64,000 nt of DNA from Brachionus manjavacas (Eukaryota; Rotifera; Eurotatoria; Ploima; Brachionidae). The stretch is taken from positions 930,001 to 994,000 of the forward strand of contig JAHQIY010000009.1 of assembly GCA_019054805.1 (NCBI GenBank). Reading direction: 5' to 3'. Positions 22,708-64,000 of this stretch are shown one piece after another. Each line of letters starts with the position of its first letter. The first letter of the stretch is position 1. The notes beneath the pieces were generated by a model. The model searched no databases, was not told where the DNA came from, and saw nothing but the letters and a program-made list of their open reading frames with translations. A program made the position numbers and the translations under genes.

Positions 22708-25700
22708 ATGCCAACTAGCATGACTCAAACGACAAATCTAGCAAATGATATGTACAAAAAGGACGGCGATACCAAGACCAGAGCGAACAATTTCTACCAC
22801 AAACGAGAAACAAACGACACAAAATCGACCAAGAGCTCTTCTGGCCGAAATAGAGATCGCGAAAGCCATCACAGACACTCGTACGACTTATCATCGTCAA
22901 ACGCAAAGACAAGCTATCACACTACAGCCAACGGCCACAATCGTCCAACAATAGCTAGCAAGCAATCTACCACCACAAAATCAAACTCGAACAAAAATCG
23001 ACCATTGTCGCCCAGCTCGGCATCGCACAAAGAATCCAAGTACTTAGACTACGAGAATTTGCTGAAGCAATTCGAAAAGTTGAAGCTAAAAGCGGAGTTT
23101 TTTGCCGACAAAGACCCCGAGTTCGCTGCCAAGCTAATAAATCTAGCCAACAAAATAACCAAATCAGCGCCCAAGATGGACAGCTCTTTCTACCCGAATG
23201 CTTTCTATTCTAGATCGCCGGCCTACTCTAGCCATTCCAACTATCCATCGTCCAACATATACAGTACTTTTAATTCGAGCAATTTTAGCCAATTTGGCCA
23301 TCACCACTATCCTTCTCAGCATCATCATACGCCACCTACAAATCCACCTCCGCCACCTCCACCACGGCCTCCCCCGATTCCGCCACATGTTCACCGCAAT
23401 TCTTCCAATTCAAAGTATCCTTCCGAAGCTTCCAACAGCTACTTTCCCAATGCAAACTTCTCCTCTTTTTCTTACGACAGCTCCCAATACCCTAGCAGTT
23501 CACATTTTAATAGGCAGTCGAGTGCAAATGCGCCTCAGGCCAGCACTTTTGACCACAATGTATACACACAATTTTTCAATTACAGCTATCCCAATGTTGA
23601 CAATTCTTTCAAGTATTCTTATTCGTTTGCTCATGAGAGACCCGAAGACTTGCTCTTGATACTCGAGGACCCGTATGATTCCAATAAACTCACGGTAAGT
23701 TTGTCCAATTTTTTATTTTAATTTATTACAAAATTAATATTCAAATAATTAGTTTATTTATTTTGAGCTCTTATTTAGACTCAACTACTAGAAGGAAGAA
23801 CCTATCCGAGAGTAGTTAAGTTCGTTTTTTCAGATAAATTTAGTAAAAGCAAAAAAAACAAAATAAAGAAAAAATAATAAATTGGTTTAAAAAAAATCTG
23901 TAATGTAAACGTTGCTATTTTTAACAACATTTACATTTATTTATAATTTCGATTTGAAATAGGCACCAAGGGTTCAATAAAATTAATGATTTGAACTTTT
24001 TCCATTAAATTTTAGTGATGATTTATAATTGAATTAATTAAAAAAAAATTCTCCTTAGTTTTATGATAAACTAAACATTTTGATTATTTACATCTATAAT
24101 AAACTTTTTGACCATCAGCACAAGAATTGCTCTACCATTTGGCTCAAAATGGTAAATCTATTAATTGAAGAGCTTCCTTAGTTGTTTCAAAACTATTTTT
24201 TAATACAGAAGGTTCGCACTTATATAGGCCCTAACTTATATCACAATTCAGATATAGCCTCAATTGGGTATAGCCGATAGTGTGATCATAAGATCACCAA
24301 AAGTGTGATCAAAAAGATAAATTTTTAAATAAAAAAGATCACAAAAAAAATTTATTGATCACAAAATAAAGAAAAGATCACAAAAAATCTAAAAATTACA
24401 ATAGTTAATTAAATACTAAATTTTCAAAATTCTTCATACAATTTGCATAGGTATTGATATCTTTGACAATACAATAAAAACTACCAGTATTTTCATTAAA
24501 TTTATATTCATAATACACTCTAATGTATACCAGCAAATCATTTACATTTAGAAACTTATAATATTTCTTTATTTTCGACCCAAGTGACTTTAATGATATA
24601 ATTGAATATAAAATTCCTGGTCTTGTTGAACACCATTTGACCAAACAAAATTTCTCATCAGTCTTCATTTTTTATATAATCTTCTTTTATGACTTATGAC
24701 TAAATAAATAGTCATTTAAAAGCTTATGGAAATAATAAGATTGCAATAAAAAATTTATAATCAAATTTGGAGACGAAAAAATATAATCAAAGAAAAAGAA
24801 ATAGTTTTTTTTTATTCGATTCAATATTTTATTTTATTTTTTTATTTATTTATTTGTTTTCTGTACCGAGCTAGGGCTCCTTCAGAATAAATTAAAAAAT
24901 CCAAATCAAAATAAAGTAAATTAGCTAAAAAAAAATGAAAGTTTAGAAGACATAGATTGTTACATGTGGCAAATGTTTACATAGCTCAGGTTTCAGGAAA
25001 AAAGGAGGAAATAGTAAGGTAGCAATTACACAATGGAGTTGGGTATTCAATATATCTCGATTCGAAACCTTCTTTGTATTCCTCCACCAGCCTTACAACC
25101 AATGGAATAGAATGACTCAGTCCTGTCCCAACATACGAGAATGTTAGTAATTTAAGTTTATTGAAAGCCTCATGATGCACCATGTTGAATGGAGTATCAT
25201 TTTTTAACTTAAAAATAGCTCTGACTGCTGGATTCTCAATTGCTTGTAGTTTTTTGATATTATTTTCTGAAAATGAATTCTAGCAAAAAGAGGAAATAGT
25301 AAGGTAGCAATTACACAATGGAGTTGGGTATTCAATATATCTTGATTCAAAACCTTCTTTGTATTCCTCCACTAGCCTGATTACCAATGGAATAGAATGA
25401 CTCAGTCCTGTCCCAACATATCTAGCACTCAACTCAAAAAGTTGATTTGAGACTGTTAGTAAATTAAGTTTATTGAAAGCCTCATGATGCACCATGTTGA
25501 ATGGAGTATCATTTTTTAACTTAAAAATAGCTCTGACTGCTGGATTCTCAATTGCTTGTAGTTTTTTGATTTTATTTTCTGAAAATGAATTCAAACAAGC
25601 AAAAGAATAGTCTAAAATTGATCCGACTAAAGATTTGTATAAATTTCCTAGTGTATTTTGATTAAGACCCCATTTTTTATTTGACAATATCTTAATAATA

Positions 25701-28700: not shown

Positions 28701-31700
28701 AATTTCTGATTAGCACAATGAAAAAAACATTCAACACAATTCGATTTCTTCTAAGCGCAAAAAATTGTATTTAATAAAAGAAATTTTTTTTCAACACAAA
28801 ATAATTTATAATAAAATAAGTTTTAAATTTTATTTTTTATTTAATGATAATAAAATAAATTTCGAAGCTTAAAAAATAATATTAAAAAAAAACTAGTCTC
28901 TAGAAAACCATTTTTCCGCATTTTTTGCTATACCTCTTTTAAGTTTATTGACAAATTGGTCCTTTTTTTAACAGTTCTTTTAATGCCTATAAATGTGCAC
29001 AATATCCTAATTTAGTGAAAAACTTGCAAGAACATTTCTTACTGTTAAGGTTAACTTTATAAAACTTTAGTTGAATGCATCTATTTTATTTTTAATTTTT
29101 GTGCTATAAGTATTTTTTTCAAATTTTAATTTTTTGTTGAGAAGAAATCATTTTGTGCTGAGCGTTTTGAAATTGTGTTGAATGGTTATTTTTTTGTGTT
29201 GAAAAGGTAGACCCTTTCTTTTTTACTAAAATTTCAAAATCAATTCCAAAAATGCAAAATAATGCAACATTCAAACATTGCATTAAACTGTAAAAGTCTG
29301 CTAGTGATGTGCAAAATCTCGAAAAAATGCATCACGCTCGAATAAACTGAAATTTAATTTCTGCTTTACTCTGCAAATTTAGCAGACCTTAATATTTGAC
29401 ACAATTTTGAGTGTTGCATTAATTTGCATTCATGGAACTGATTTAAACTTTTAAAAAAAAAAATTCAACTTTTTAAATTTTTTTCTGATTTTTATTATTT
29501 TATACTGAATTTCACAAAACCATTGGAGAATTAGCATTAAAATTTTTTCCAGACAAAAAAATCAGCTAAAAACACAACTTTGTAAAGAATTATGAAGTTG
29601 AAAAACATAAAATCGAGTGTAAAGAGTTGAAATATTGGGGTAAAGGAGTAGGGGTAACCGAGTTAATTTCTCAAAGCTCTCTTAGTCCTCATCCCATTAA
29701 TCTATCATACAAAATGGGTGAGTCAAAACTTTGGGGCAAAAGGGGATCAGATTTTGCACCTTATTTAAAAAATTAAAAAAATATGTCACACTTTTCAAAA
29801 TAAACACTTTTTAAAGAAAAAAATAATCACAAGTTTTACTCATTTTTTTTGGTAGAAAATGGGTAATTTTCGAAGAACTTTTTATTTAAAAATTAATCGA
29901 ATTTCGATTAAAAAACTTATATCTATATTTAAATATAATTTATTAATTAGAAATTGACGAGTTATTTTTCTCTATCTTTTAATTATCCAAAAAAATATTT
30001 TAAAATTATTTTATGTAATTTTATTTTAAAAATATAGAATTAATCTAGTAAAAAAAATTCAGGTAAATTTGACAAACAGTGGTTCTTCGTTGATCAGTTC
30101 TGGATAAAAATACTAGAAAAAAACTAATCTTTATTTTGACCAATTTTTAAATAAAAAAATACTAATTTACCTGTTAAAAGTGTGGTCGTAATCGAAGAAC
30201 CTGGTGAAGAGCCAATACTTTATAGACAAGATACTGGCGAATTGGTCAGCAATGGTTCATATATAGATCCATTAGTAAAGGAGCAAAATAGCGAGCATTC
30301 GAATGAAGTGCCGGCAAAAAAAGAGGAACAGAAGACAAAATACTACAAGGATATTGACGATATTTTCAAGTGTGAAGAATCGCAGAGCGTCGATTCTTCG
30401 GCTAAAATAATAGACCTGGAAAAATCGTCACTATCAAGCTCATGTCCAAGTCAAAACGAAACCACCAGTGCAGATTTAATAAATTTTGACGACGATATCA
30501 TTGAACCAAAATCAGAGCCAAAAAATTCAAGACCAGAGCCGATCAGAAGAACAGTCCGACGTGCCGAAAGCTTTGTCTTGCCCAAGACTCAAACAGTGAA
30601 CAAAACCTCAGTGAAAAGAGACCTCAATCAAAAAATTCATTTTCGCAGTTCATCAACTTCGATTCGCAGACCCGAAGTTGCTGAGACAGTCCAAAAGCCT
30701 CCACTAAAACCCGATGTCATCAAAAAACAAATAAATACCGAACCACCTAGGCCGGTTCAAGTTAATGAAAAATCCAAGATTAAAGTTTTGAATATAAACA
30801 AAAATTCTAGACAAACTGGCTCGATTAGTGAAAATTTAAACAATATTCAATTGAATAAGCCCTTAAGACCAGAAGTGGCCAGAAAGGAAGTTTCCGAGTC
30901 GGAAAAAATAAAGCCATCCAACCAGTTCAATCATCAGTATGAAAAACCATTGTTGTCCAGCCATGCCAAGCTTGGAGGCGAACCAGCCGTATCTCTAAAA
31001 AGGCACACTTCTTTGCTGTGTCAAAGAACGTCTTTGTTGGAAAAAAATTCCTCTGAGGAAAAAAAAAGCCTGAATATTCCTGTGAGTGGAGCTGAGCCTG
31101 TTTTGCCGAGAGCAAAAAAAAATGAGATCAAGTCGCGATTTTCGTTGAGAGAGACCAGGCCTAATGTCAAGGACAATACCAGGCGCTATTCGCAAATTTA
31201 CCAAAAAGAGTCCGACTCAGAAATCAGCACCATTCACGAGGAAAAAAAAGAAGAGGATTTTTACTCGGAAGCTAATGAGAAAATATTGGATGAGAAAAAA
31301 AAAAAGTTTATTAAAAATCATCGATTGATGATGTCCAAAAAACTGTCGAAATCGGTTGATACTGGTTTGTCCGAAAAGGGTTCAAAATACATGAAGATGA
31401 ACAAAATTGAGGAGAAAATAAGCCAAAAAAATAGGAATAAATTGAGCGCTGAGCGCAATTTCCACCAAGATTTGTCGGACAGTGACCACTACGAAACTGG
31501 AAATGTTGTTTACGGTAACGAGTCGTTCAAAACTTCAAATAATCACCTGAACTATGACTTTTACAGCTATGACCAAACGTATTCAGATGGCTATTACAAT
31601 TTTTTCAATTCAGCACAATCACCTGCTTATTTTCAGCCGGGTTTTTTTAACAGAGCTAAATCGAGGATTCAGGATCAAGAGGCTAATCTTCAAGCGTCGG

Positions 31701-31846
31701 TCACAAATCAACCAACTCAAGCGCAGACCTCCCAAGCACACACTCATTATTATCCAAGTTATTACACATCTTGGTATGGATCGGCGCCTTCGTTGCGCAT
31801 TCAAAATCAACGAGTTGATAATTGTCAAAACATTTACTACAATTGA
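22708..31846 (+). CDS. Large disordered protein of unknown function, three exons
   Basis: I do not recognise this gene. Exons 22708-23694, 27578-27801 and 30181-31846 join in phase (0, then 2) to 958 residues. The N-terminus is rich in Ser, Thr, Asn, Arg and His (GRNRDRESHHRHS). A helical, charged segment lies near residues 114-150 (ENLLKQFEKLKLKAEFFADK), then His-rich and Pro-rich runs (NPPPPPPPRPPPIPPH, about 212-227) and a Tyr/Ser/Asn/Phe-rich stretch. Exon 2 holds the most ordered part, TRTQVGPDGEQQRVTIERD followed by a predicted helix. Exon 3 is Lys/Glu/Ser-rich with a Tyr-rich, prion-like end. There is no signal peptide or membrane helix, so it is probably intracellular; Arg/Ser and Tyr-rich disorder would suit an RNA-granule or scaffold role, but that is inference. 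The ATG follows AACAACA. Introns of 3.9 and 2.4 kb are full of transposon remnants. Confidence 0.8.
23695..24257. other. Start of intron 1
   Basis: The intron opens with GTAAGT at 23695. Nothing is recognised except a short hairpin at about 23787-23820 with the arms AACTACT and AGTAGTT. Confidence 0.5.
24258..24265. repeat. Target-site duplication, left copy
   Basis: CCTCAATT directly precedes the left end of the TIR element, and the same 8 bases follow its right end at 25991-25998. That is the duplication expected of a cut-and-paste transposon with an 8-bp staggered cut. Confidence 0.7.
24405..24668 (-). CDS. 87-residue ORF inside the TIR element
   Basis: This frame starts with ATG and begins MKTDEKFCLVKWCSTRPGI. 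The FCLVKW start followed by a Ser-Leu strand and a second beta-rich half loosely recalls the small SH3/Tudor-like domains often found before BEN domains in invertebrate element-borne proteins, but I cannot prove it. It sits between the left TIR and the nested LINE, so it probably belongs to the DNA element. Confidence 0.35.
   Translation of the reverse strand: MKTDEKFCLVKWCSTRPGILYSIISLKSLGSKIKKYYKFLNVNDLLVYIRVYYEYKFNENTGSFYCIVKDINTYANCMKNFENLVFN
24828..25815 (-). mobile_element. Jockey-type LINE, 5'-truncated
   Basis: The minus strand encodes the C-terminal third of a LINE reverse transcriptase: MSQKEIKFLGIKFDSKLNF, then LSNKKWGLNQNTL and YKSLVGSILDYSF, the order typical of Jockey-superfamily proteins. 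A 3' untranslated part with the block TTCTGAAGGAGCCCTAGCTC and an (AAAT)n tail ends it at about 24828. It is inserted in the TIR element. A 285-bp internal tandem duplication (25006-25282 and 25291-25595) doubles the end of the coding region. Confidence 0.75.
25006..25595. repeat. Tandem duplication inside the LINE
   Basis: The stretches starting AGGAAATAGTAAGGTAGC at 25006 and at 25291 are near-identical for about 280 bp. The first lacks a roughly 33-bp piece present in the second. The copies are so alike that the duplication must be recent or an assembly join. Confidence 0.75.
25991..25998. repeat. Target-site duplication, right copy
   Basis: CCTCAATT, identical to 24258-24265, directly abuts the right inverted repeat of the TIR element. 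Confidence 0.7.
25999..27577. other. Rest of intron 1
   Basis: Apart from the transposon remnant, a 76-codon minus-strand frame at 26626-26856 (with FGSAHVEIYKRIFSEFYDMF) looks protein-like but I do not recognise it. The acceptor TTTTTCAG before 27578 is strong. Confidence 0.45.
26180..26600 (-). mobile_element. DNA-transposon remnant with transposase helix-turn-helix
   Basis: A minus-strand frame within 26316-26501 reads SDLGRPAAFNKQEEVILN and then ends with FKLT, the pattern (GRP, EE, L, F-LT) of the N-terminal helix-turn-helix of pogo/Tc5-type and related DDE transposases. It is flanked by facing copies of TTTACCCATTTAAC (about 26188 and 26565-26585), which may be its inverted ends. Only the DNA-binding piece survives. 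Confidence 0.4.
28610..29215. mobile_element. MITE-like element with inverted CAACACAA clusters
   Basis: On the left (28691-28800) the plus strand carries several copies of CAGCACAAT or CAACACAAT; on the right (29100-29205) the complement, TTGTGCTGAG or TTGTGTTGAA, recurs. Clusters facing each other in this way are typical of subterminal repeats of a non-autonomous DNA transposon. The exact ends and target duplication are not clear. Confidence 0.4.
29244..29437. mobile_element. Small palindromic MITE
   Basis: AATGCAAAATAATGCAACAT at 29251 is matched on the other strand by AATGCAAATTAATGCAACAC from 29430 inwards, and the pairing extends outwards to TTCCA/TGGAA. The arms are about 28 bp with a few mismatches and the whole is about 190 bp. 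It lies in intron 2 of the plus-strand gene. Confidence 0.6.
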
Positions 31847-36955: not shown

Positions 36956-40485
<3,530 letters not shown>

Positions 40486-47001: not shown

Positions 47002-47287
47002 TTAATTTAATTCAATATTATCCATTGTTGCATATGTTTTGTTTTTCTTTTTGTTCTTTTTCTGGAAAAAAAAAATTAATATTTTATTCATTTAAACAAT
47101 TCAATCAAGCCTACCTTTGGTATAATATCTTCTTCGTCGTCCTTGATTAAAAAAAAAAAATTAAAACACTTATCTGATTAAAAAATATGCTCATCTTACA
47201 TTTATATCAAATATTGGATTTGCTATAGCTATTGAATCATTACTATCACTGTCATTACTCGAATTAGATAGCTGAACCGCTTTAAAA
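47002..47287 (-). other. MAM gene: three cytoplasmic-tail exons
   Basis: Exons 47287-47200, 47141-47115 and 47061-47002 encode FKAVQLSNSSNDSDSNDSIA with NPIFDIN, then the acidic DDEEDIIPK, then the basic KKNKKKNKTYATMDNIELN and TAA. NPIF resembles NPxY/F sorting signals and YATM could be a phosphotyrosine or YxxM/YxxL-type sorting site; both uses are inference. Splicing is in phase throughout. Confidence 0.85.
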
Positions 47288-50200
47288 CTTGAAAAAAAAA
47301 ATATTTAAAAATAAAATAAGCCTAATTTAAATTACTTGAAAATATCTTTGAAATTATTTAATTTCTGATATCTATATATAACAAATCCCATAAACAGAGC
47401 AATTAGCAATCCGGGGATCAATATTCCAACAATGAGCCCTGTATCTTTAGAATTTGAGGTTTTTCCAAGTTTTTCACCACATTTAAAGCCGCTAAAACCA
47501 TTCGCACATTTACACCCAAATCCGAGATCTATCGAATAAAAACAACTACCACCATTGAGACAGAAGTCCGAGGGACATGTTGGAATGGAAGTTTTGTCAG
47601 TACTGACTGTTGTTTTTGTTGTTTGGCCAGAAGGAGGTGTCTTTGTTGATCCAGTTTGCTGCGATGAAGGCTGACTGGTTAAAGTAGAACTTTTACTTGA
47701 TGTTGAAATAGTTTCGTTCTTATTCGGCAACTGATCGAAAACAGGTTGACAACCAGGACTGAATGATGTATCCTAAAAGAAATTCAAAAATAAAAAAATA
47801 AAATAAAATTAGATTTTAATAAATCATACATCGATTGCCATGTCTGATTCGGAACCAAGTCCAACTCGACCGTCAATTACAATCTTTAAAAAAATTATTT
47901 TTATTTTGCTAATTTTTTTCAATAAAAAGTTACTTGGAATGGCTTATCTGTATTGATTGTGACCAGATTACGCTTCCACACATCACCTTGATTTCCAGTC
48001 ATGTTCCTTTAGAAGTTTTTTTTAATTAATTTCTAAAATAGAAGTAATTATCGTATCTTACCACACTACAGGCCAGTTAAAATCATTTAGATAGTTTCTA
48101 AAATAGACTGTCATTGTGCCCATAGTTTCCTTAAAAATGATGATTTAGCATATAAATAAATATCAATTTCTTATGAAATGAGTGAAACTTACACCAAACA
48201 TATGTGAATAGAATAAAAATGTACATTGCTGATTTTGAGCTGGAACATAAATACGACTGTAAACTCGCGCTATCTTGTTTATGTTTCCATAAGACTCCAA
48301 ATAAAGATAAGAGCCAACATCAGTACCAGTTGTGTGATCTAAAAGAAAAACTATTTAAATTTATTATTTTCCAGGCTGATTATTAAATGCCTCTGGTAGG
48401 GCCGGTTTTTGAAGATGGCGATGGCCCACTGTATCGTTTCCATTTTGAGGATACATTCGAGTCAATCATCCAATCGCATAGAGAATGGTCAAAGGTACAC
48501 CTGGTAAAAAATTCCTTTATTTCTAGTTTCTAAAATAAAAACAAGCTACTTTTGGTAAGATGAACAAATTGGTAAAATTTCATCCGAGTAGTCGCCGCAG
48601 TCATCCACAAAATCACAAGTTTTCTCCATAGGCACACAATTGCCTCGTTTGCACTTGAACTCGTTGGGCGAACAAGTGCCACCAGGGAAAGGCAGCGAAC
48701 AGTTTTCAAAGCTAACATCATCAATGACAACAAAACCAAACGAAGAAAAACTTCGTTCACCTTCGAAAATAACCTGAAATTTAGATGACACACTGCCTAA
48801 ATGAATGACATCTTGGACCCATTTTACTAATGGTTGTGTGTTCAATGGTGTATTCTTTCTAAAAATTTTTATTTTCTTTTCATCATTAAGCAAAAGGGAG
48901 GCATCCAAAGAGGCCGTAGATCCTTCAATTCGCGACCAGAATTTTATCTGACATGTTGAACTGGCAAATGGTAAAACTGGAGAATAAAGACTTGCTGGTT
49001 GGTTCAGCGCTCCATTGTTGGTCGTCACAGCCATGTAGTATCCAGATTGATTGTTAAATGTATGGTCAACATTCGGTCCGATATTGGATACAGTTGTTGA
49101 ATTTCTAGTCCTTGTCCATTTAAAGCTACCTGAACTTTTGTCCATCCATCCGCACAAATCAGTATTTTCAAAAGTGCAGCTACCACAATTTTTCTCGTCT
49201 TGCCCATTTGAACAATCGCTTTTAAAGTCACAAACTAAATTCGAGTCTATAAATTGACCATTTCCGCAGTCGAATTGTCCAACAGGGCCTTGACACAGTC
49301 CACTGTAGAGTTTTAGATCATCAATTGCAAGCTGGCCCGTGGCATTATTCGGATTTGATCCAGTAACGCCTTCAATTATTAGACTGTATGGATTGAAATT
49401 GTTTTCCAATTGAACTTCTCTTGCCAACCAAGCATCGCCATACAAATCTGTTGGTAGTGTGAACAACTGCTTAATTTGACTGTTTCGTTTGTCTTTGGAA
49501 TTTATTTTTAAACTAGCTTTGTTATTCTGGTTAATTTTAAGATAAAATTGAAGGCATTGTTTGCCAGAATTTTCGCTCAGTATTTCAGACTCAATTTGAG
49601 CTTTTAGGCCGGCAGGTTTTCCATTGGTATCCAAGAACAAAAATGAACCATATGCGGTTCCAAGAGTATGATCAAATGATGGAATATCCCAGTTGACCAA
49701 AGCCGAGCCAAGCTCTCCATTCAAAAGAACCCAATTAAAGTCATTACCTTTAACATATGTATAGCCACACAGGTTTTCATCTTCGAATGTACACGAAGCT
49801 ATCGGATCACATGAGCTAAAGTCAATGTTTATGTCATCAAGCCACACTTCTCCATCATTGACACCCTGGTCGACTAGTTCAAAAACAATTTGATACGGAG
49901 CCGAGTAGGACAAAGTTGTACGGCCCAACGACCACTCTTTGCCTCGGTCTCCTCTGGCACTGAACATAGCCTTGCTGTTGTAATTGCCAAATGAATAAGT
50001 TCTTATATTGAATTGAATACCGCCCTGGGTTTTGTACCAGAAGTTAACACAAAGAGTGGTAGCTGGATAGACTGGAGATAAAAATCTTGCCATTCGATTC
50101 ATCAGATGTGGACTAATGGACTTGGCAAGCATGTAGTGGCCAGTTTCAGAGCCATAACTGTGATCTAAATCTTCATTTTTGCCTTGCACACGATTCCACT

Positions 50201-53200
50201 GAATAGCAGCACTCAAATCATTCTTATAGCCGCACAAATCCACAGACTCAAAGTCACATGTATTTGTTATTGGACAATTTCCATCGTTGTAGGCAATGTC
50301 ATCCATAGCTATGTCGCCAAGAGCACCTGTACCCACCAAGCCTTCGATAATAAATCTTGTCTTTGTAAAAGAACTCTTTCGTTCTAGATAAACTTGTCCC
50401 AACATCCATTTATCTCCTTTATTGCCTTGTTTTTGCCACACAGCTTTGCCAAAGTCAACATCACTGGCTAATTGGGAATAGACATTCAATTTGTTGATGT
50501 CTCTGCCGAACATGTGATAGAAAAATTTCAAACAACCGCCTGTACTGCTCATTGTAAAATAGGGACCTAGGAGGCGAGCTGTGTTGTTCGGTTGTGCAGG
50601 CGGCGATGTCTCCAGATAGAGGTAATAGCCAAACTCTGTGTCGGTAGTGTGGTCAGCCGATGGTCCAGTCAAGAATGTTTGAGTTCTTCCCTTGTTTGTT
50701 TGCCATTTGAAATCAGCCTCAGAATCATGGGTCCAGTAGCACGTGTTGTTTTGATCAAAGTTACAATCGACCGGATTGGCCGGATAGGTTATTGTGGTCG
50801 ACCTGGTCGAAACGCTGACCGATGATGCTGCTCCACATGGACTTGTCGAATAGGACAGATCGTCCAAAGCTATGTCACCCCGATACCCATCTCCAATAAT
50901 TCCTTCTATATAAATCCTGAATTGACTTGCACTAGTTATGTTGACTAAGATGTGCTGCCAAGCAAAGCCTTGCTCTCCAACGATAACTGCCAATGTTGTG
51001 TTGCTTCCCACAGAATTATTCATGTAAATATTCAATTTGTAAACATCCAATCCATGCAAAAAATACCAAAGACCAAAACAACCATTATCAACTGCATCTA
51101 CATAATCGCTGATCAAAATGGCATTATCATTTAACTTAGCAGGCAGACTTGATTCTAAGAATAAATAAACACCTTCGTCAGTTCCCAAAGTGGCGTCTAT
51201 ATGAGGACCAGTATCGTAGGAGTCAGTTTCGCCCTGGTTCAAAAGCCAATCTAATTTGTCATCTTTTGATTGACTCCAAGCACATAAAGAATATTCTTCG
51301 AAATCACAATCTAACAATGATGGACACTTTCCTGGCAAAATCTTAAGGTCATCGACTCCAATAAGAGCGTTATTCAATTGAGTACTAGACACCACTTGTC
51401 CTTCGAACATTACTGAATAGTCATAATTTGAAACAGCTATGTGGTCTATTTGAATTTGTCCATATCGCCACTCGGCCAATGTGGTTGACATCATTGACCA
51501 TTTTTTGTTCGCTACAGAATTCTGAACCTCATACACTTGAAGAGAAAGCGCATTGGGACTGAATGCGTTGCTCAAAATGTACCAAAATTGGACACATTCA
51601 TAGCTATTGGTTCTAAATTTTGGTCCAACCAACCTAGCCTTGCTATTTTGTCTTAAACTAGTGCTCAGGTCAACATAGACAAAAGATCCGTTTGAAAATG
51701 AAGAATGGTCGGATACAGGTTTTCCTAAGATCCACCTAAGATCAACAGATGAATCACCAAGATTGTCATTTTCATATTCACATGTATCTACATTGAAATC
51801 GCATTCTCGCTGAGGTTGACATTTACCATCATTGACAAATATGTCATCAATAGCTATCTCACCAAGATTTCCATCACCTTTAATAAAAAAAATTGAATCG
51901 GATTGTTTAAAACGAATCCATTTCAAGTTTTAAAATTATTGTGTGTTTTTTAAAATTTGTAAATTTGAAAAATGTTTGTTTCACCGTTTAGACCCTACAA
52001 GTCAAAAGGAAATTACAGCAATTTTTTTTTTATACTCTGCCTTATTTATTAACGCAAATTTAATTATATTTAAGCTTACACAATTTGTGTCAATTGAAAA
52101 AATAGAATTTTAACTAAAAATTAGAATGGACATGAAATTTTAAAATAATTTTTCAAAAAATAGCATGTTCGTAATAACACAAGGCCAATGTTGCTGGTTT
52201 ATTATTTTTTTAAATCTTATTTTTAAATTAAATTTTCTTTATTATGAATTTTTCTTTTTTAGATTTAAACAGAATTGTAAATTTTTGGAGAAAAAAACAA
52301 AAAATATATTAAAAAACTTAAATTGATCCTTGTGGAATTGGTTCTTAAAAAATTATTAGCTATTACACTAAATCTATTACCTTAATCCAGTTTTTAGAGA
52401 AATTTCAACTAAAATTTAATTTCCTAGATTAAAGTAAGGTGAGGATTGAATAAACATATTAAATGCAAATAAAATTACAAAAAGTGAATCGAGCATAAAA
52501 ATAATTTTATTTTTTTAAATTCTTACCAATCACATAGACTTTTTTTTACAAACGATAAGTCAAGTAAGTTAAAAAAAAAGTCAATTAAAACATTGAAAAG
52601 TGTCATTTTAAGTAAAAAAAAAATGAAATAAATTAATCAAGTTCGACCTCAGAATTAACTTTAAACAATACTATTTAACTTTATGTTTTATTTCCTTTTT
52701 TAAAATTTTTGTTTATGTTGTTGTTATTTAGATTCAAATTTTATATGATTTTTCAGTCTCCCTCCAATTTTTAATATGTATTACTTTTTTTAAAAATCCT
52801 TTGCAGTCTGGTATTTTTGTTTCAAAATTCACAATATATTTTAATCTAATTAATTCTATTTTTTTTTAATTTTCATTCTGATCTAATAAAAATTTTCCTA
52901 ACTTAGTTTGTAAAAAAATTTACTTTTTTTTTCTTCACACAAATGATAACTACTAGATTTAAAAAAAATGAATAAAACTAACCTGAAAGGGCTTCTATTA
53001 CCACTCGCCATGGCTTATCGCTATTAACAGTTCTTGTTCCCAAATACCATCTTCTAGCTCTTGATCCCGATTTAGCCCAAACTAATTCTCTGTCAAACCC
53101 AGTTTCCGATGTTAAATTGTTAAATTTATCCAAATAAACATTTAATGTATTGACTTCTAAGCCAAACATGAGATACCAGAACGAAAAGCAAAAGTCTTTA

Positions 53201-56200
53201 TTTAAGCTTTGGGTCTGAATGCTGGATAAAAGACGGCCCTTGTCATTTCTATAATTTGAATAAGTTGGCTTGTAAACAGCATAGTAACCAAGACCAGTAG
53301 TGTGGTCATACAATGGGCCTGTGTTTTGATAATATGCTGATACATTAGCTTTTCGTATCCACTTAATGGTATTGTTTACATCATTGTAATAGGAACAAAG
53401 TCCGCTTTCAAAATCACACCCGAGATCTTCGTCAGTGATAAGGCTATCGGGCGAACAGTCCAAAAATTCCACATCGTCTATAGCTATGTCATAGTAGTCC
53501 AAATCAGTCACATATTCTGGGTAGGCTATTACTTCAAATTGGTAATTGGCCGGCATTTTGCCAATGTCAAAGTTAACATTGAACCAATTTTTATTTCCTG
53601 TTCCCATGATAGATCCAAGCCTCTTGTAGTCATAACTATTGCTGTAGTTTGTATAAAAAAACAAGGCGTTTGAGTCTGAATTGTCCATAAATAACCAGAG
53701 AGAAACGCGGCACGCTGCTCCAGTCTCTTGAAATCTAGGGCCAAGAAGAACCGATTTTGTCCAAGTGACACCGGCATTGGGATCTAATTGAGTAATTAGG
53801 AATGATCCTTTTTGACTGCTTGAAATCAACGTGTGATCGACTTGAGGACCCTGGGGATTTTGGGACGGAGCCTGACGTCTTTTCCACAAAACTTCATCGT
53901 CACTTTGGTCATAGAATCCGCACCACGACGTCTCAAAATCGCATGTTCCGCACTCAGCCTCGTCCGATTTGTCATCACAATCGGCCTCAAAATTACACAC
54001 TTTGCTATCTGGTATGCACACTGAATTCGATCTACACTCAAAATAGCCACTCGGACATTTACTACTTGTTGTTTGAGTAGTCATGGGTGACACGGATGAA
54101 AAAGTGGTGTTTGTGTCCAGAATACAACCAGGGCCAAACGAAATGTCATCAATGCACAAGTCACCAAACGGACCGTCGCCTACAACACCTTCGATAATCA
54201 GCTGGAACGGATCGGCCGAGTTTATTCGAATAAAAGCTCTTTCCCAATAGTTGCCCACCTCTCTGTCTTTGCTAAACAACAATTTCTCATTACCAAAGCC
54301 TGTGCGTGAGTAAACATTCAGCGCTCCGATGTTTATTCCAAAAGCGTGATAGAACACTTTAACCTCACAAGTTGGACTTGATTTAAACACCGAGGATAAA
54401 AGTCTTGCCTTGTTTCCTTTAAGTTGGCCACTTGTCTCCATGTAAATGAATTGGCCTAGCGATGTGCCTGTAGTGTGGTCCCTGCTGGCGCCAGTCGCAA
54501 ATGATGGAGTTTCACCACGGATCAATTTCCACTTTAAGTCCGACTCTGGATCAATTTGCCAGTCACACAGACCGTTCTCAAAATCACATTGGTAGTAGCC
54601 AGTGCAGTTCATCTCGTCGGACATGTCACCACAGTCGTCTATCAAATCACAGCGTTCAATCATCGGAACGCATCCCTTTGACTTGCACTGGAAGTAATCA
54701 TTAGGACAGCCGTTCTCTCTGGGCACTGGGAACTCACAATTCACCAGTCTTATGTCATCGATGGCCAGATCATGATTGTCATAGTCAAAAAATCGAATTC
54801 CATCAAACTCTAGTTGAAATGGACTTGTTATTCTGCCGAGCTGAACTCGGGCCAGTGTCCATCTGTCACCAAAATCTCCGCTGTACTCCTCAAGCACAGT
54901 GTATATTCCATTTTCGTACAAATAAATGCTCAGATCGTCTGAGTCTCCGAACATGTGGTAGTAGAGCTGTAGTTCGCACTTGGAACTGCATGGTTTGAGA
55001 ATTCTGCCAAGTCTTAAGGACGCATAGCCGTAGCCATTGTAGGCGTCTGGATTCAGATCAACTTGGATGTAGTGGCCATCCGGATTTTTTAGAGTGTTGT
55101 CCACACTAGGTCCGTTTAATGAAAGTCTGGCTTTTGTTCGGTTCCATAGCAATGTGTCAGTACTTACATCTTTGTATTGGCATGTGGAATTTTCAAAATT
55201 ACAGTCTCCACACACTTGTTCGTCGCGTCTGTTCGGACAATCGAATCTGAAATCGCAAACGTTGGCGTATGTGATGGTTGTTCCGTCGCCGCAGAAAAAG
55301 CTGGTGCTTGGATCCGGGTTGAATGGATCGTCAGTGATGTCGCTGCATTTTTTGTCATACAAGTTTACATCATCGATTGCCAGGTCCAAAGGTTGGTCCG
55401 AAAATGTGCTCTCGAGATAAATTTCGTAGTTGACACCGTCGCCAGTGATTGGAATGAGAGCTCGCTGCCACTCTGGGTCCATGCTGGGTGTCAGGGTCAA
55501 CTCGGATGTGAGAGTTTGATTTGGATAAATTTTGCGGTAGATGTTCAGACTGCCCGTGTTCGATTGACCGTTCAGTATGTAGTAAAGGCTAAAACACGAG
55601 TCGTTTAGGTAATTTTTGGCAATGACTGTTTCGGAAAAAATTCTAGATGTTTTATTAAGCACTTTCATGTCATAGCTTGGATTCATCCATAGGAAATGAC
55701 CATATCCGCTATTTAGCGTAGTGTCTACTTTGATACTGGTCTGAGGATATAGCTGGGCTAGCTGCTGACCGGTTATTCGAAGCAGACTGAATGGATTTGT
55801 TGGTTCCCCTTGCCAGTTGCACAGCGAGTCTTCAAACGAACATTGGGCTGGTTTTTTACAAGCTCCGCGCGTGTCTATGAATATGTCATCAATGGCTATG
55901 TCACCAGTGTATGATGAACCAACTATGCCCTCGAAAACAACCTGAAATTTCAAAAAAAATTTAATTATTTTACTTAATGAAAATTTTTAAAATAAATTTA
56001 ATTTGTTTATTAAATGAAAATTTTATAAAAAAAATTTGGGTTTTATTAAAAAACTATTAAACAAATTTAGTAAATTTAAAAACGAAAAAAAAGCAAAACT
56101 TTGATCTGTAGACACAAAATTTAAATAAAAGATTAATAAAATTAAATAAGAGTGAGAATAGGAAACAAATAAAAAAAGTGAAATGAAAAAACAGCCCATA

Positions 56201-59200
56201 AAACTGAATCTGTTAAAAAATGTTTAGTATTTTGTTAAATGTTAATCAACATATAAAAATTACTCTTTTTACTCTAACTAAATGCGTTCTTAGCCTTCTT
56301 AATTAATTTAATTTTAATTTTTATGATTTTAACTCTTTACGAATAAACATTTAGATTTAGAAGATGAAAAAAAAATTAAAAAAGTACCTCATAAAGTCCG
56401 TATCACTTTTTATGGATAAATTTTGATTTAAAGAATTAATTTATGAGTTTTATATCATTTGTTAATAACAGTAAATTAACTTTATTAAAGAATTTAATCA
56501 ATTAATTTTTTATATATCAGAATGAGTATTTCAGTCAATTTTAATAATTAAAATTTTATCATTTTGTTTAAAAATAGACTATTTTCCTATTTTAATTTTA
56601 AAGTTTCCAAAAAAAATTACATTAGCAATGAATAACTTAAATAAATTAATTGACATATTTTGAAAATATTTTAGTACATTTAAAAATAGTGGCTATTGAT
56701 TGAGAAATTAAAAATTTGTCTGTATATTTTATCTAATAAAAGTAAAATCTTTTTTTATGAATAGAAATTGTTAAATGATGAGAATTTAAAAAATTAAAGA
56801 CTTACCTCAAAATCCTCATTTTCACTGATAGTAACACTGGTTGTTCTCCATTGATTGCCTTGATTTTTGCTTATTGACCATATTGGCTCGCTTGACAGTT
56901 GATCGCGTTTTCTCGTGTACACGTTTAATGTTCCTATTGATGTTCCATATGCATGATACCAAAAATTCAAACATACTCCATTGGGTGTTTTAGTTACTTT
57001 AGGTGAAATGAGTCTTGCTTTTTCGCCTTGTTTTTGCGGCGATGAAGTTTCTATGTACATATAGTGACCAACCGGAGTAAGATATGTGTGGTCAAATGAT
57101 GGACCTGTTGAAACGCTTACAGTATTCACTTTATTCCTAGACCATTTAAAATCAGCATTTACATCTTGTTGATAGCCACAGATGTCTTCAGTTTCAAAGT
57201 CACAGAATTGAGTGGCTGGACAATCGCCAATTATCAATTTAACTTCATCAATAGCCACATAACCATCGTAAATATTTGCCATATCTCCTTCAAATTCAAT
57301 CCATTTATTCACAGTTAAATTGCTTGGTACTCTAACATAAGCATGACTCCATGTATCAGCTACATTACCAAATCTTTTCCACAGTTCTGTCCTATTTTTT
57401 GCATTCCTAAGTGCAACAGTTAAGCCTGAATTTATTGGACCGTTCAGTTGATACCAAAATTCCAAACATGTATCTTGGGCTTTGTTAAGAACAGGAGATT
57501 TTAGAACAGCAGTTGATAACTGACTGTTATAATTTGAATCTATGTATGCGTAGTAGCCATATGAGCTTTGTAGAGTTACATCAGTTAGAGGTGCTTGTCC
57601 GAACTTTGCATTTTGACCATTTTGACGTTGCCATTGAGCACCTATTGATGGATCGTTTGACCAATCGCAGAAACTATTTTCAAAATCGCATTGCAACTCG
57701 AACGGCTTTGCCTCGGTTGTCGTCGGCTTTTGAGTTGTAGTCGAATTGTAGTATTCACAAGTTCCACCATTTACAAAGTCCACATCATCTAAAGCAATAT
57801 TACCGAGATACCCATTTCCAATAGTTGCCTCAAATACCAAATCAAAGTATTTGTTGTTACTCGGTATGGTCACTTGACCAAGCATCCATTTATTGCCCAA
57901 ATTACCCTTTTTAATTCAATTTAAGTAAAATATTTTTCTAGTTTTTTATTTGATTTTTACTGAAATGTTCCACATTTTTTCCATCGGTGATTCAGCTACT
58001 CTTCTGTAAACATTCAACTGTCCAATGTTTAATCCATTCAGATTGTAGAAAAAGTTAAGGCAGCCTGAATTTGGTGAGAACAAAATTTCACTAATAAGCC
58101 AAGCGGTATCATTGAATTTTTGTGGCGGAACCGGATTTATGTAAGCATAATAGCCTAGCTGAGTCTGTGTGGTATGGTCCACTGTCGGGCCAGTTATTGA
58201 ATATATTGGTCCTTTTCCTCTTAGCCAGTCGAAATTGTCACCCTCTTTTGTATTATAAAATCCGCAAAAACCATCTTCAAAATCGCAGAAAGCTTCCGGT
58301 GCACAAGGACCGGTCTCGATTTCAATATCGTCAACAGCAATATCACTAGAAGAAAATTTTCACATTTTTCTAAATTTTATTTGAATAAAAATTTTACCCA
58401 GTAAATGATCGGCCAACAATTCCTTCAAGAACAACCTGGAAATCAACTATGCTTGAAATAGTTACGTGTCCATATCTCCAGAAATTTCCGAAGTTTCCAC
58501 TTCTTGACCACAGTGCTCGAGACAAAACATTGTTTTGACGTGAGTACACATTCAAAGTGCCAATCGAGTCTCCAAATAAATGATACCAAAATTTGAAGCA
58601 ATCACCCAAAACTGATCTTGGGTATGTGGGACTTATGATTCGAGCCTTTTGGCCAGTTGTTTGCGGATATGATGTTTCTATATAAATATAATGTCCGTTT
58701 GCCGACAATGTAGTGCTAAAAAAAATTTTAATTTTTTTTTTTAATTTTAATTTTTTTGTTACTGATCAAATGAAGGTCCAGTTAAGCTGCTGTTTGTTGA
58801 ACCACTTGATCTAGCCCAATTGAAGTCCGCAGTTGTGTCACTAACCCAATCTTTGAAAAAAATTATTTAAAAAAATTAATTCTCATTAAATTTTATTTAG
58901 CTCACTGCATAGATCCGTTTCGAAATCGCATATACGGGAGGGTGGACATTGCCCGATAGATAATGATACTTTTAGAGAATTAGTATAAAATTTTGGCATC
59001 AAAAACTTCAAAAAGATTACTTTCATCTACAGAAATGTCTCCACGAAAACCAGAACCAGCAATACCATCAATCGCTAGTTTGAAATCATAGCTAATATCT
59101 GTGCTGTCTAATCTCACATTGGCTATGAGCCATTTGTCGAGCTGTGCTCCCACTTTTTTGAAAATGGTCGTCTCATTTTTGAAGTCATTATTTCTTATTA

Positions 59201-62200
59201 AACTGAATTGTAAAGTATTAATATCAACACCTTTAAGATTTGGTTTTATTTTAATATTATTAACAAATAAATTACACAATTACCAAACATATGATAATAA
59301 AAGGTCAAACAGTATCCATCAGCATTGGGCTTAGAAATTACAGGACTAATTAGTCGTGCCAAATCATCTTTTTAAATTAAATTAAAACTAAATATAAAAA
59401 AATTCATTTGATTTTACTTTTGTTAGTGTACGATGTTTCAATGTATACGTATCCTTGGGTTGACAGAGCACCATTTTGAGGGCCAGTGCCAACAGAACCT
59501 GTAGAGCCTGAGTGTAGTGTCCAGTTGAATTGAGTACCGGCGACTTCATTTTGCCAAGAGCATAAAGTGTCTTCAAAGCTACAATCAGCAAATATTGATG
59601 TTTGAATTTGAGGAAGAGCGTTGGCTGGCTGAACTTGACAAGTTTCATATTTTATCTCCAAATCATCCAGAGCCTTAAAATAGTTAGATTAATAAATTGT
59701 TATAAAAACAAATTTAAGTGATTTACAATGTCGCCTGTATAACTTGAGCCTACAATACCTTCGAACATTATTTGGTATTTTACATTTGATTTAAAAGGTG
59801 CTAGACCATGATTCCATGATTGACCTTTAAAAAAAAATAAAAAAAAAATAAATTTATTTTTATTTTTAATAAATATTACCCATTTCGCCAGATAGAGTCC
59901 ATAATAAATCTTTGTTTGTATCACTTATCAAATAAACATTCAATGTTCCTATTGTCTTAAACAAAGATATAATTTTTAGAAATTGTATTGATTTTAAATT
60001 AAAAACAAAAGATGCATACCTTTCCGTACATATGGTACCAAAATAGTACACAGCCATCGCCATTTAGCATCATCGGCTCGCTTAACAAATGAGCTTTCCA
60101 ACCTTCTTTAGCCGGAGAAGAACTTTCAATGTAAATGTAGTAACCTTAGCAAATAGAGCAAGTTTAGAGATTAAAATTTTTTCATAGATTTTTTATAGAT
60201 TTTTTAAAATTAAACCTTTTAAATTAGACAGAGTATGGTCAAGGGAAGGTCCTGTACTAGGAGATGAAGTTTCTCCGTTTTCAAGCCTCCAGTCAAATTC
60301 ATCAGTTCCATTTACATTTATCCAATTGCACAAATCCTTGTCGTCAAAATCACAAATATTTCCGCTATGCGAACAAGACCGATTTCTTAAAATAATATCA
60401 TCCAGAGCAACTAGACCATTTGATGGATTGTAGCCTACGAGCGCTTCAAAAACAATACTGTAGTCAACCAATTTTTTAACATTTACTTCACCCTTCCACC
60501 AATAGCTTGAATGGTCATAATTGCGTGACCAAATTATGCTAGTAGTGCTCAGTGTATTTGTTTGAGCCTTTACATTAAGAGTGATCGAATCTGTGTCTTG
60601 TAGAAAGAAGTAAAACTCCAAACAACGAGCCGATTCGTTCTGAAACAAACTACTCAATGCTGGATACACTCTACTTGCCATTGTAGCTGTATTGTTCAAT
60701 TTGAAACCAGTTGATTTGGCAAACACGTAGCCACTGCCGACTCCGTCAGATGTATGGTCGTTTATTGGCAATGGACCGGCTCTGGGCTCATTTCTTTGCG
60801 GTGAATACAATTCCCATTTAAAATTTGACGAAGCATTGAATGAATAGCCGCATGCATCAGCTGAAAATGTGCACAATTGATCCAAGTCTGAGCCGTCTTG
60901 ACACTCACCATCTGTAAAGAATACATCATCAATTGCAAAAATGTCCGTATCAGCAGCAAATTCAACAGATGTTAATTCCATCAGCACTTTGTAAGATGAA
61001 CCTGATTTTACTGTTACTCTACCCAGTCTCCATAAATCTCCATTCGAATTTGATCTTGACCAAATCGGATATCCAATTTGATCATTTACCTTCACATACA
61101 AATTAAATTTGTAGCCTACATTTGATGCAAAATAGTAATAAAATTCCATGCACTGAGCTTTATTGAACAAATTGTCTGTCTCTATTCGAGCTAGGTCTGT
61201 TTTTCGTTTTCCAGCAGCATTGGCAAATAGATACCATCCATTGGCTAAAGACAGCGTATGATCAGCTTCGATCGGTCCTGTTAGTTGATCGCCCAGAATG
61301 CCCTGCGTTCTAGTCCAGTTGTAATTGCTCTCTTTGCTTGGTGTCCAAATACACAAGTTGTACTCAAAGTTACAATCATTTGGACCAGTTGGTCTAATAC
61401 TTAAAGTTGTTGTCATACTTGTTGTTGTTATTATTACATTTGGATCAGCACTATCTGGAATAATACTACATGGTCTTTCAATAAAATCTAAATCATCAAT
61501 GGCGATATCGGATCTAGCATTGGGTCCTTTAACTCCTTCTATTAATAATCTGAACGAACTAGCTGAATTGATATTAACTTGACCATTTAGCCAAACATCT
61601 CCTTTATTTCCACTTTGGCTCCAAATTAGTGCAGTGTTATTTGCTTTATAGGTATAAATGTTTAGTGTACCCATTCCGGTGCCGAACATATGATACCAGA
61701 AGTCAAAGCAAAGACCATAGCTTGGTGTTGGTAAAAATAGCGTACTTTCTAACCATGCTTTATCGCCAGATTTCAATGGTGCATTTGTTTCTATGAACAA
61801 ATAGGTTCCAGTTGCATCACCATAGGTATGATCAACATTTGGACCAGTCAAAGAAGTTCCAGTTTGATATGATCCTAATTCCCAATCAAAATCGTCTCTT
61901 GAATCTAAAACATTTTGCCAAAAGCAAAGGCCTTCTCCTTCAAATGTGCATCCTCCAAAACTTTGACACGAGCCATACTCAATTTTAATATCATCTATGG
62001 CCATTACTGAACCATATTCTTCAGTTTTTTCGCCCTCGAAAATTAGCGAAAAATTTTTATATTCACCGATTGGCAGTATACTGATCTGAGCAGCATTCCA
62101 TATTTTTCCCACATCTTCACCAAACCTCCACAATAAACCTCGTTTGTCCTGAACTTGAATATAAACTGCTAATTTTCCCATTTCTCTTCCTGACATATGA

Positions 62201-64000
62201 TAAAACCATGTAAGACAATAACCCTCAGGCACAAAATTAAACAATGAAGTTACAACTCTGGCTTTGTCTCCAGTTCTTCTTTGGTACAGGTCCAGTTCCA
62301 AAAAATAGCCCGATATTGAATTTGTCTATAATTAGAGAAATTAATAATAAATTCATATAAAATCTTGAAAAAAAATCAATTACTGTATGATCAAGATAAA
62401 TTCCGAATGAGTTTCTTCCATTAGTTCTAGTCCAGTTAAAATTTCCAGTTAAATCGCTGACAAGGTTACATGAGTCCTGCTCAAAATCACAATTAAACAA
62501 ATCATTGGTGATACAGTAGCCGTCAACAACAGAAACATCGTCAAGAGATATATCACCCTGATGGAAAAAAATAATCATTTAAAAAAAAAACAAATTTAAT
62601 TTTTTATTTACATAATAGCCATTTCCGCGGACTCCTTCAAAGATTACAATAAAATTTTCATTCGATTTCAAATTGACTTGACCTCTGAGCCACTTATTTC
62701 CTTGTGTTCCAGCCTTGGACCATACAACACTCTCGTTTGTTTGAGTTTGAGTGTATACATTCAAACTTCCTATATGTCTACCGCGCATGTGGTAGTAAAA
62801 TGTCAAGCATCTTGGGCTGTTTCCTCCCGAAAAATTTGGTGATAGCAAACGAGCCGAATCATTAGCCGCAGCTGGTGAAGATGTTTCTGAAAAAACAAAA
62901 AATAATAAACTATTTCTATTAATAATAATCATTTTTATTTACCTATATAGATATACCATCCTTCTGGAGTAGCAAGACTTGAAAAAGAAGAATTAAATTC
63001 AAAAATAAAATAAATTTGGCAAAATTACGTGTGGTCAACATCTGCTCCAGTGTCAATGCTTCCAGTTGAGCCCTTATTTCTTTTCCAGATCAAAGCTTGG
63101 CTTGAATCGTTTTTCCAGTTGCAGTAACCGAGCTCGAATGTGCAGTCATAGATTGAAGGCGCGCTTGTCGATTGGGGAGATCTAGTCGTAGTTGTTGTGG
63201 TTGATGGTATCGGAAGACCAGAGCCAACCGCAGCAGATAGAGGACTGATGGAACAATATTGAGCATCTTTGAAAAATATGTCATCAATTGCTACCGAGCT
63301 TTGGGCTGATCCACTAGTTCCCTCAATTATAATGGTATATTCGGAATTGACGTAGAATCCGAATTGTCCATAATTCCACTGGGCACCTTTGTCACTAAGC
63401 CCTTCTTTCCAAATCAACGTGTCGTTATTATTACTCAAATTTCTAACAAATATGGATATTGAACCCGGATTAGTGCCACTTATGTAATACCAAAATGTGA
63501 GACAACGACCTTGAAAATGAATAGTTGAAATGAAATTTTATTATTTTTAGTTTAAACCTCTGTAAGATGTTGGATTTTGAAAGACTTGACTGGACATTAT
63601 GGCTAAATTGCCACTGTTAGCTGACTCAACAAACGCATAGCTTCCATATGAACTTCCAGTACTAGGCACAATTTTTAGAGTTTTAAATTAATAGGAAAAA
63701 AAGATGCTTATTAAAACCTGTGATCACTAAGTGGTCTAAAATTGTCATTAGGGTCTCCAGACGCAACTACCCAATTGGAAGTAAAAATGGCTGAGTCAAT
63801 TGGTTCCCAAGAACCTTGAAAAAGTTTCAAAATTTTAAATTAAAATTTTAACCTAATGATTTTTAAATGATTGATACGCACAGAATCCGTTTTCAAAGTC
63901 ACAGTCTCCTATAGGCAAACAAGAGCCATCTCGAACAAAGACATCATCTATATAAATGTTAAAATCATTTCCAGGTTTATTTGCGGACACATATTCTTCA
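47002..64000 (-). CDS. Giant MAM/LDLa/EGF transmembrane protein, 5' end outside window
   Basis: Thirty exons, about 13.55 kb of coding sequence (some 4,500 residues), run from the right edge to 47002; the N-terminus is missing. It is a type-I membrane protein whose ectodomain is a chain of MAM domains, adhesion modules with four conserved Cys: one partial and 24 complete here, each running from C-D-F-E-x-x-L-C-x-W through D-H-T and LNVY to G-D-I-A-I-D-D-I and a final Cys. Five LDL-receptor class A modules lie between MAM domains in the C-terminal half, followed by a Ser/Thr stalk, one EGF-like module, a membrane helix and a short tail. The layout is closest to MALRD1/Diet1 and MAMDC4 (endotubin) of vertebrates, which have far fewer MAM domains. 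Introns are 47-71 bp except for two of about 1 kb. One exon (58905-58968) carries a base too many for the frame. Ligand and function are unknown. Confidence 0.9.
47336..47772 (-). other. MAM gene: stalk, EGF-like module and membrane helix
   Basis: The exon closes the last MAM domain, continues in a Ser/Thr/Lys-rich stalk (STSSKSSTLTSQPSS) likely to be O-glycosylated, then a six-Cys EGF-like module (CPSDFCLNGGSC to FKC) and the hydrophobic segment GLIVGILIPGLLIALFMGFV followed by YRYQK, which marks the cytoplasmic side. Confidence 0.9.
47830..48500 (-). other. MAM gene: last MAM domain in six small exons
   Basis: Exons 48500-48391, 48338-48193, 48129-48062, 48006-47934 and 47883-47830, with the start of 47772, make one MAM domain: CTFDHSLCDWM, DHTTGTDVGSYLYLES, MGTMTVYFRN, GNQGDVWKR and SESDMAIDD. 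The intron between 48391 and 48338 starts with GC instead of GT. Confidence 0.88.
48550..51877 (-). other. MAM gene: 3.3-kb exon with six MAM and two LDLa modules
   Basis: Uninterrupted frame of 3,328 bases. It ends one MAM domain (GEIAIDDIF), then has six complete ones. An LDLa module with four Cys (FDCGNGQFIDSNLVCDFKSD) precedes the sixth and one with six Cys (CSPNEFKCKRGNCVPMEKTC) follows it. A Thr/Ser linker (SVSVSTRSTTIT) separates the second and third of the six. Confidence 0.92.
51878..52982. other. MAM gene intron, 1.1 kb
   Basis: AT-rich; donor GTTAGT, acceptor TATTAAAG. No coding or mobile sequence recognised. Confidence 0.6.
52983..55941 (-). other. MAM gene: 3.0-kb exon with MAM domains and three LDLa modules
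   Basis: Uninterrupted frame of 2,959 bases: end of one MAM domain, four complete ones and most of a further one. LDLa modules follow the first (four Cys, FFCGDGTTITYANVCDFRFD), second (six Cys, CPNDYFQCKSKGCVPMIERC) and third (six Cys, CPSGYFECRSNSVCIPDSK) of the complete domains. Confidence 0.92.
55942..56805. other. MAM gene intron, 0.9 kb
   Basis: AT-rich, donor GTAAGT, acceptor AAATTTCAG. Nothing else seen. Confidence 0.6.
56806..58715 (-). other. MAM gene: exons 58715-58398, 58345-57961, 57906-56806
   Basis: These three exons hold most of one MAM domain, two complete ones and most of a fourth. They include the linker STTTQKPTTTEAKP between two of them. Introns of 52 and 54 bp cut before GDIAVDD and before GNLGNKW. 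Confidence 0.9.
58763..60144 (-). other. MAM gene: stretch of nine short exons
   Basis: Exons 60144-60020, 59955-59880, 59824-59727, 59673-59418, 59367-59284, 59230-59021, 58968-58905 and 58850-58763 (plus the next) cover one and a half MAM domains with introns of 47-64 bp. Intron sites recur at the same place in each domain, for example before the IGTLNVY strand and before GDI-A/S-V/L-D-D. Exon 58905-58968 has 64 bases where 63 would keep the frame. Confidence 0.85.
58905..58968 (-). other. MAM gene exon with a frame problem
   Basis: The exon must enter and leave in phase 1, as its neighbours show, which needs a multiple of three bases. It has 64. The frame reads correctly to ICDF, then the expected E-x-D-L-C of the MAM start is seen only one base later, at the GG pair inside TTCGGAAACG. 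Either this allele is broken, or one G is a sequencing or assembly error. Confidence 0.7.
60216..62325 (-). other. MAM gene: 2.1-kb exon
   Basis: Uninterrupted frame with the second half of one MAM domain, three complete ones and the first part of the next. A Thr-rich linker (VIITTTSMTTTLSIRP) lies between two of them. It ends at a weak GTTTAA donor. Confidence 0.9.
62384..64000 (-). other. MAM gene: N-terminal-most exons in the window
   Basis: Exons 62557-62384, 62886-62612, 62977-62943 (35 nt), 63509-63029, 63661-63558, 63814-63718 and 64000-63882 (open at the window edge) hold the end of one MAM domain, two complete ones and the first half of the next. A Pro/Thr linker (STTTTTTRSPQSTSAPS) separates two. 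At 63882 the donor is GTGCGT after the T of a Cys codon; only this choice restores the F-C-S-W motif. Confidence 0.85.

Follow-up and report, generated by a model that had tools for sequence, protein, structure and literature searches.

The window analysed here, a 64,000-nucleotide stretch of Brachionus manjavacas DNA (C9:930,001-994,000, from a genome of 114 Mb in 61 contigs), holds the C-terminal half (47.2-63.9 kb) of a giant predicted minus-strand gene, GL, whose 5' part continues outside it to C9:1,008,005. Beyond the window lies a larger, divergent sister gene, GR, in an inverted duplication that is absent from the earlier note. GL and GR appear to belong to a kind of animal membrane protein that is already known; to judge by the literature found, their size is a record and their layout is new. 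We call the kind known because tandem MAM/LDLR/EGF membrane proteins have been published, including coral ones of up to 7,311 residues. Our preferred reading, held with slightly less than even confidence, is that GL encodes one ~0.89 MDa type I glycoprotein, that it and GR arose by inverted duplication of an already giant MALRD1/endotubin-like gene, and that the product is a receptor for endocytosis or capture at an apical membrane, most likely in the gut.

Neighbouring DNA was added up to C9:1,066,000, and positions on the extended scale continue the numbering of the window. Spliced models were computed from DNA alone with our own gene finder, which uses codon bias, splice-site weights and GT-AG introns. 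With a strict intron penalty, GL is a single minus-strand gene from 78,005 to 47,191 (7,699 aa, 50 exons). Easing the penalty recovered skipped short exons and completed partial MAM domains, from 40 of 45 complete under the strict setting to 44 of 44 at -5.5, unchanged up to -4. In its final form the model comprises 7,949 aa over 58 exons, with zero internal stops. The predicted spliced product thus carries 44 MAM and 5 LDLa in 7,699-7,949 residues. The strict model puts the stop codon at 47,191 and the lenient model at 47,088; the last tail exons of both genes shift with finder settings. In controls at the same settings, the best chain on the antisense strand reached 375 aa for GL and 260 aa for GR; window positions 1-46,000 gave 628 and 598 aa on their two strands, and 50-bp block shuffling (one shuffle each) gave 1,391 aa (GL region) and 1,205 aa. 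The earlier note had placed the N-terminus beyond the window, and the neighbouring DNA does provide a hydrophobic, signal peptide-like start at C9:1,008,005, judged by hydropathy alone. A search with a rotifer spliced-leader sequence gave no exact match.

Domains were counted with a profile built from the GL and GR domains themselves, and Pfam served as an independent check. Features of GL in the window are listed below; MAM entries come from the spliced model and the profile, and LDLa entries from an LDLa search and the spliced model unless stated otherwise.

47191..64000 (-), GL, portion within the window; gene model from sequence, 5' end at extended-scale 78,005 (C9:1,008,005)
63262..63903 (-), MAM GL21, last of its triplet (GL20 spans the window end)
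61468..63144 (-), MAM triplet GL22-24
59635..61374 (-), MAM triplet GL25-27
57757..59583 (-), MAM triplet GL28-30
55345..57690 (-), MAM triplet GL31-33
55210..55311 (-), LDLa 1, the weakest (22.4 bits with our own profile); by Pfam it is one of three LDLa stretches in its exon
54736..55203 (-), MAM GL34
54604..54708 (-), LDLa 2
54130..54588 (-), MAM GL35
53950..54060 (-), LDLa 3
50835..53943 (-), MAM GL36-39
49290..50765 (-), MAM triplet GL40-42, in one exon
49185..49286 (-), LDLa 4
48699..49178 (-), MAM GL43
48576..48677 (-), LDLa 5
47749..48499 (-), MAM GL44, spliced
47578..47748 (-), Ser/Thr-rich stalk, from the translation
47488..47577 (-), EGF-like module with six Cys (Pfam EGF 19.6 bits, under the 21.5 cut-off)
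47377..47433 (approx.) (-), single membrane helix IVGILIPGLLIALFMGFVI, a hydrophobic 19-mer of mean hydropathy 2.77
47209..47220 (-), NPIF in the cytoplasmic tail (GR counterpart NPVY), from the translation

Every MAM from GL21 (63,262-63,903) through GL44 (47,749-48,499) is full length in the spliced model, giving 24 complete MAM and five LDLa within ~4,460 encoded residues, with MAM and LDLa alternating at GL33-36 and GL42-44. Pfam recognised MAM in seven of eight translated window pieces (6, 5, 3, 1, 5, 2 and 1 stretches; best E = 1.1e-179, for an exon holding six MAM) and LDLa in two of the eight (2 + 3 stretches). Searched exon by exon without splicing, PF00629 gave at least 22 matches above cut-off entirely within 47,002-64,000 (-), plus one across the window end; genome-wide, 150 of 221 candidates of this unspliced search were scored, so that its counts are lower bounds. 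These results agree with the at least 24 complete MAM, five LDLa and about 4,500 visible residues reported in the earlier note, and its single membrane helix was likewise recovered, in a type I layout. The EGF module that it named corresponds to a six-cysteine EGF-like stretch, for which the eighth piece gave an EGF match alone, below the Pfam cut-off. The predicted structure of GL25 is a clean MAM fold, so that both fold and above-cut-off PF00629 matches place GL in the MAM family; the AlphaFold2 model of triplet GL40-42 was poor (pLDDT 64.9, pTM 0.50; eight alignment rows of mixed registers). Sequence matches in the PDB were to MDGA1, enteropeptidase, scavenger receptor C, neuropilin and meprin for MAM, and to LRP2/VLDLR/LDLR for LDLa.

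The first 33 MAM domains of GL form eleven triplets. A linker of at least 16 aa occurs at all 10 triplet borders, and among the other junctions of GL01-33 just 10|11 (13 aa) is longer than 12 aa. GR01-27 has a like pattern, with eight triplet borders and the corresponding exception at 4|5. Linkers of at least 20 aa are Thr/Ser/Pro-rich (S+T+P 48% in GL, against 21% overall, and 46% in GR), which bears out the Thr-rich linkers noticed earlier. MAM domains within one gene share a mean identity of ~28% (neighbours), and those in the same triplet phase exceed those in different phases by 1.1 points in GL (p 0.0029) and 1.9 points in GR (p 0.0002); the best match lies in the same phase for 15 of 33 GL and 16 of 27 GR domains. 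The identity signal carried by triplet phase is weak but significant, and support for strong triplet ancestry is only partial.

GR is predicted on the plus strand from extended-scale 79,070 to about 115,600, head-to-head with GL. Its length is 9,253 aa under strict settings in a bounded region and 9,507 aa under lenient ones (~1.06 MDa); the protein carries 51 MAM, 12 LDLa and one helix, together with a stalk and an EGF-like stretch. All 51 MAM are complete at the loosest setting, compared with 46 full of 55 matches at the strict one; by hydropathy, the gene model contains no convincing signal peptide. A first GR model that was fused to a downstream DUF268-like gene was dropped after refitting with a bounded region; that DUF268 gene (PF03269, 127 bits) lies immediately downstream of GR (L014:8085-8906). 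The GL and GR start codons are 1.06 kb apart, ATG to ATG (C9:1,008,006-1,009,069; extended-scale 78,006-79,069), and this AT-rich gap is likely a shared two-way promoter. GL07-44 pair in order with GR01-38 as reciprocal best matches between the genes, and the partners are sisters in all 38 pairs in a tree of MAM domains. The proteins are 65.5% identical across 6,653 aligned residues, where 36 introns agree in place and phase, out of 43 in GL and 53 in GR. From these comparisons, the pair evidently arose by an ancient inverted duplication, at a time when the gene was already giant: colinear pairing of 38 domains, combined with ~28% identity within a gene, shows that the array is older than the duplication. 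The protein sequence is under constraint: 21 of the 38 pairs yield a finite dN/dS, which ranges over 0.10-0.38 (16 pairs are saturated in dS and one is identical, and these give no ratio).

In six of the 38 pairs dS is at most 0.13, whereas elsewhere it is at least 0.75. These pairs make up three islands (GL25-27, GL32 and GL40-41) with 98.0-99.1% coding nucleotide identity between GL and GR and exact inverted matches, introns included, of up to 653 bp:

59662..61392 (-), gene-conversion island with GR, 99.1% nucleotide identity in coding sequence, exact inverted matches to 653 bp including introns
55912..57387 (-), gene-conversion island with GR, 98.0% in coding sequence
49773..50921 (-), gene-conversion island with GR, 98.8% in coding sequence

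The plain reading of the sequence is that the islands reflect recent gene conversion between the arms; an assembly slip is possible. One island coincides almost edge to edge with a MAM triplet. It is improbable, and may nevertheless be entertained, that the two genes are the arms of a cassette whose MAM triplets are copied whole from one arm to the other and possibly also from dispersed truncated copies.

GL appears to be one gene because 48 of its 57 introns cut a MAM or LDLa domain, at least 8 aa inside it, and the other nine are short (48-170 nt). The earlier note described one long chain and named two or more separate genes as its refuter. That alternative could draw on the nine introns outside domains and on the bias of the finder toward joining exons, but the nine are just 48-170 nt long, each of the four introns in the 774-1,105 nt range falls within a domain, and GR retains the identical 38-domain order; with intron positions and colinearity both against it, we consider separate genes very unlikely. 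The chance that the locus is a pseudogene or an assembly artefact seems equally slight. Inverted arms that are 98-99% identical in the islands are error-prone for assemblers; however, all 44 GL MAM are complete without a stop, dN/dS is far below 1, and within-gene MAM identity averaging 28% argues against collapsed copies.

The predicted architecture is MALRD1/endotubin-like, with interspersed MAM and LDLa and, by hydropathy alone, a hydrophobic N-terminus and one helix. Endotubin/MAMDC4 is far shorter than GL and is not known to have a triplet layout. This apical early endosomal glycoprotein shares tandem MAM and LDLR modules and a membrane anchor (PMC4890752). Vertebrate MALRD1/Diet1 also intersperses MAM and LDLa and is found in gut epithelium (PMC8804323); it has nine MAM and nine LDLa in 236 kDa (PMC8804323), compared with about 891 kDa, 44 MAM and five LDLa in GL. 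Coral MAM/LDLR skeletal proteins are giant chains too: the two entries, of 5,145 and 7,311 residues, are each marked as a fragment (PMC4043741). In Acropora digitifera the counterpart combines MAM, LDLr and EGF with a membrane anchor but, unlike GL, also has fibronectin and trefoil domains and a place in the skeletal matrix (PMC4890752); an inverted gene pair is not described in the available portions of the coral accounts. Tandem MAM/LDLR/EGF membrane proteins are known in cnidarians and bilaterians, and a review groups tandem MAM+LDLR proteins with endotubin and Diet1 (PMC4890752). Keyword searches of the open-access literature found no report of tandem MAM-domain proteins in rotifers. The contention in the earlier note that known MAM chains are much shorter is true of MALRD1 but not of the corals, so that, on the portions of these sources available, the novelty of size was overstated.

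Related sequences occur elsewhere in the genome. At C13:2,513-2,542 kb (L030-L034) lies a nine-MAM gene with ~six LDLa and a hydrophobic helix downstream; 12 of its 13 MAM pieces match GL/GR domains, with best matches to GR43-GR51 in order. Unlike GL and GR it stops at nine MAM, which is the size of MALRD1; its introns are long, and no EGF was seen in it. Read unspliced, four of the 13 pieces contain stops, which may reflect introns or decay. Copies of GR 97.76-104.24 kb, five long and two short (L019-L029), were located by sequence match:

C11, 17.0-23.6, 24.1-28.8 and 43.4-45.2 kb, GR-fragment copies
C14, 64.3-70.2 and 75.1-81.7 kb, GR-fragment copies
C32, 89.7-91.7 and 94.0-99.5 kb, GR-fragment copies

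The copies are about 99% or more alike mutually and 88.6-92.4% alike to GR, are without the membrane tail, sit close to contig starts in repeat-rich flanks, and have frame shifts between blocks in all four examined. A GL tail query gave 47 matches, with GL first and C4:7,001,260 (31.0 bits, 34%) slightly above GR (30.2 bits, 43%); the remaining ones resemble EGF matches. Among the 150 of 221 MAM candidates scored, an unspliced PF00629 match lies beside the GL and GR tails but beside no other tail match, and tail queries against the C11, C13, C14 and C32 stretches reached a best E of 0.35.

Several other loci were recorded. A dense LDLa cluster at C7:4,548-4,568 kb, with no MAM among the matches listed (150 of 221 candidates scored), is perhaps an LRP-type receptor. 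A 6-phosphofructo-2-kinase gene (PF01591, 93.5 bits) occupies window positions 36956-39537 (-), and two open reading frames, of 337 aa at 22708-23721 (+) and of 554 aa at 30182-31846 (+), had no Pfam match. The mmr-b mate recognition primer (PMC2746195) has three matches at C7:5.02-5.12 Mb (L017, L018), one exact and two with one mismatch. A second published B. manjavacas oligo, the mlh3 guide target (PMC10395877), has a single exact match, and neither pattern has any match when reversed; the two oligos point to a member of the Brachionus plicatilis group, most probably B. manjavacas. The mmr genes are defined as intron-less, with repeats of 87-92 codons and no Pfam similarity (PMC2746195); GL, which has MAM domains and roughly 56-58 exons, lies outside that definition.

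The cytoplasmic tails carry IANPIF (GL) and IQNPVY (GR) at a like position just inside the membrane and are otherwise dissimilar. The endocytic motif of LDLR is FDNPVY, and adaptor-driven uptake by an apical capture or endocytic receptor may be proposed because both tails resemble this motif, with GL having F instead of Y. GL would be a type I membrane glycoprotein with a signal-like start, 33 MAM as eleven triplets, the remaining MAM, membrane-near LDLa, stalk, EGF-like module, helix and short NPIF tail. Its triplets of beta-sandwich domains would project as a long fibre from an epithelial surface, hinged at O-glycosylated Thr/Ser/Pro-rich linkers, and could retain ligands or particles via many weak MAM and LDLa contacts. 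PTB/clathrin adaptors may then recognise the NPxY/F-like tail for uptake or recycling at the apical epithelium, most likely that of the gut. A shrimp scavenger receptor with MAM undergoes clathrin-mediated internalisation (PMC5222524).

A static coat is nearly as likely as an endocytic or capture role. The same molecule could be a barrier or adhesive component of glycocalyx or integument with no endocytic job, as the earlier note proposed, and we hold this as a tentative but serious alternative: extreme length and mucin-like linkers suit it, and coral proteins of like kind occur in skeletal matrix (PMC4043741, PMC4890752), whereas the short tails retain an NPxY/F-like motif despite divergence elsewhere and the LDLa modules sit near the membrane. 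Much less probable is a surface label by which mates or clones would be recognised, with MAM triplets exchanged among inverted arms and dispersed copies. Recent conversion islands, many near-identical dispersed fragments and the function of repeat-bearing rotifer surface glycoproteins in mate recognition (PMC2746195) favour such a label, but known mmr genes are intron-less short repeats without Pfam similarity (PMC2746195) and the islands make copies alike rather than diverse.

Whichever role applies, GL (~0.89 MDa) and GR (~1.06 MDa) would rank among the largest MAM proteins described and exceed the coral examples found. They occur in an animal with CRISPR tools, which would make the function of a giant MAM/LDLa receptor testable by knockout. 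Colinearity over 38 domains shows that the array was already old when duplicated, and the nine-MAM gene on C13 may offer a MALRD1-size stage for comparison. If the cassette reading were true, a megadalton capture receptor would be kept uniform or reshuffled blockwise, and the pair would parallel, in an animal and for a surface receptor, the gene conversion that palindromes drive.
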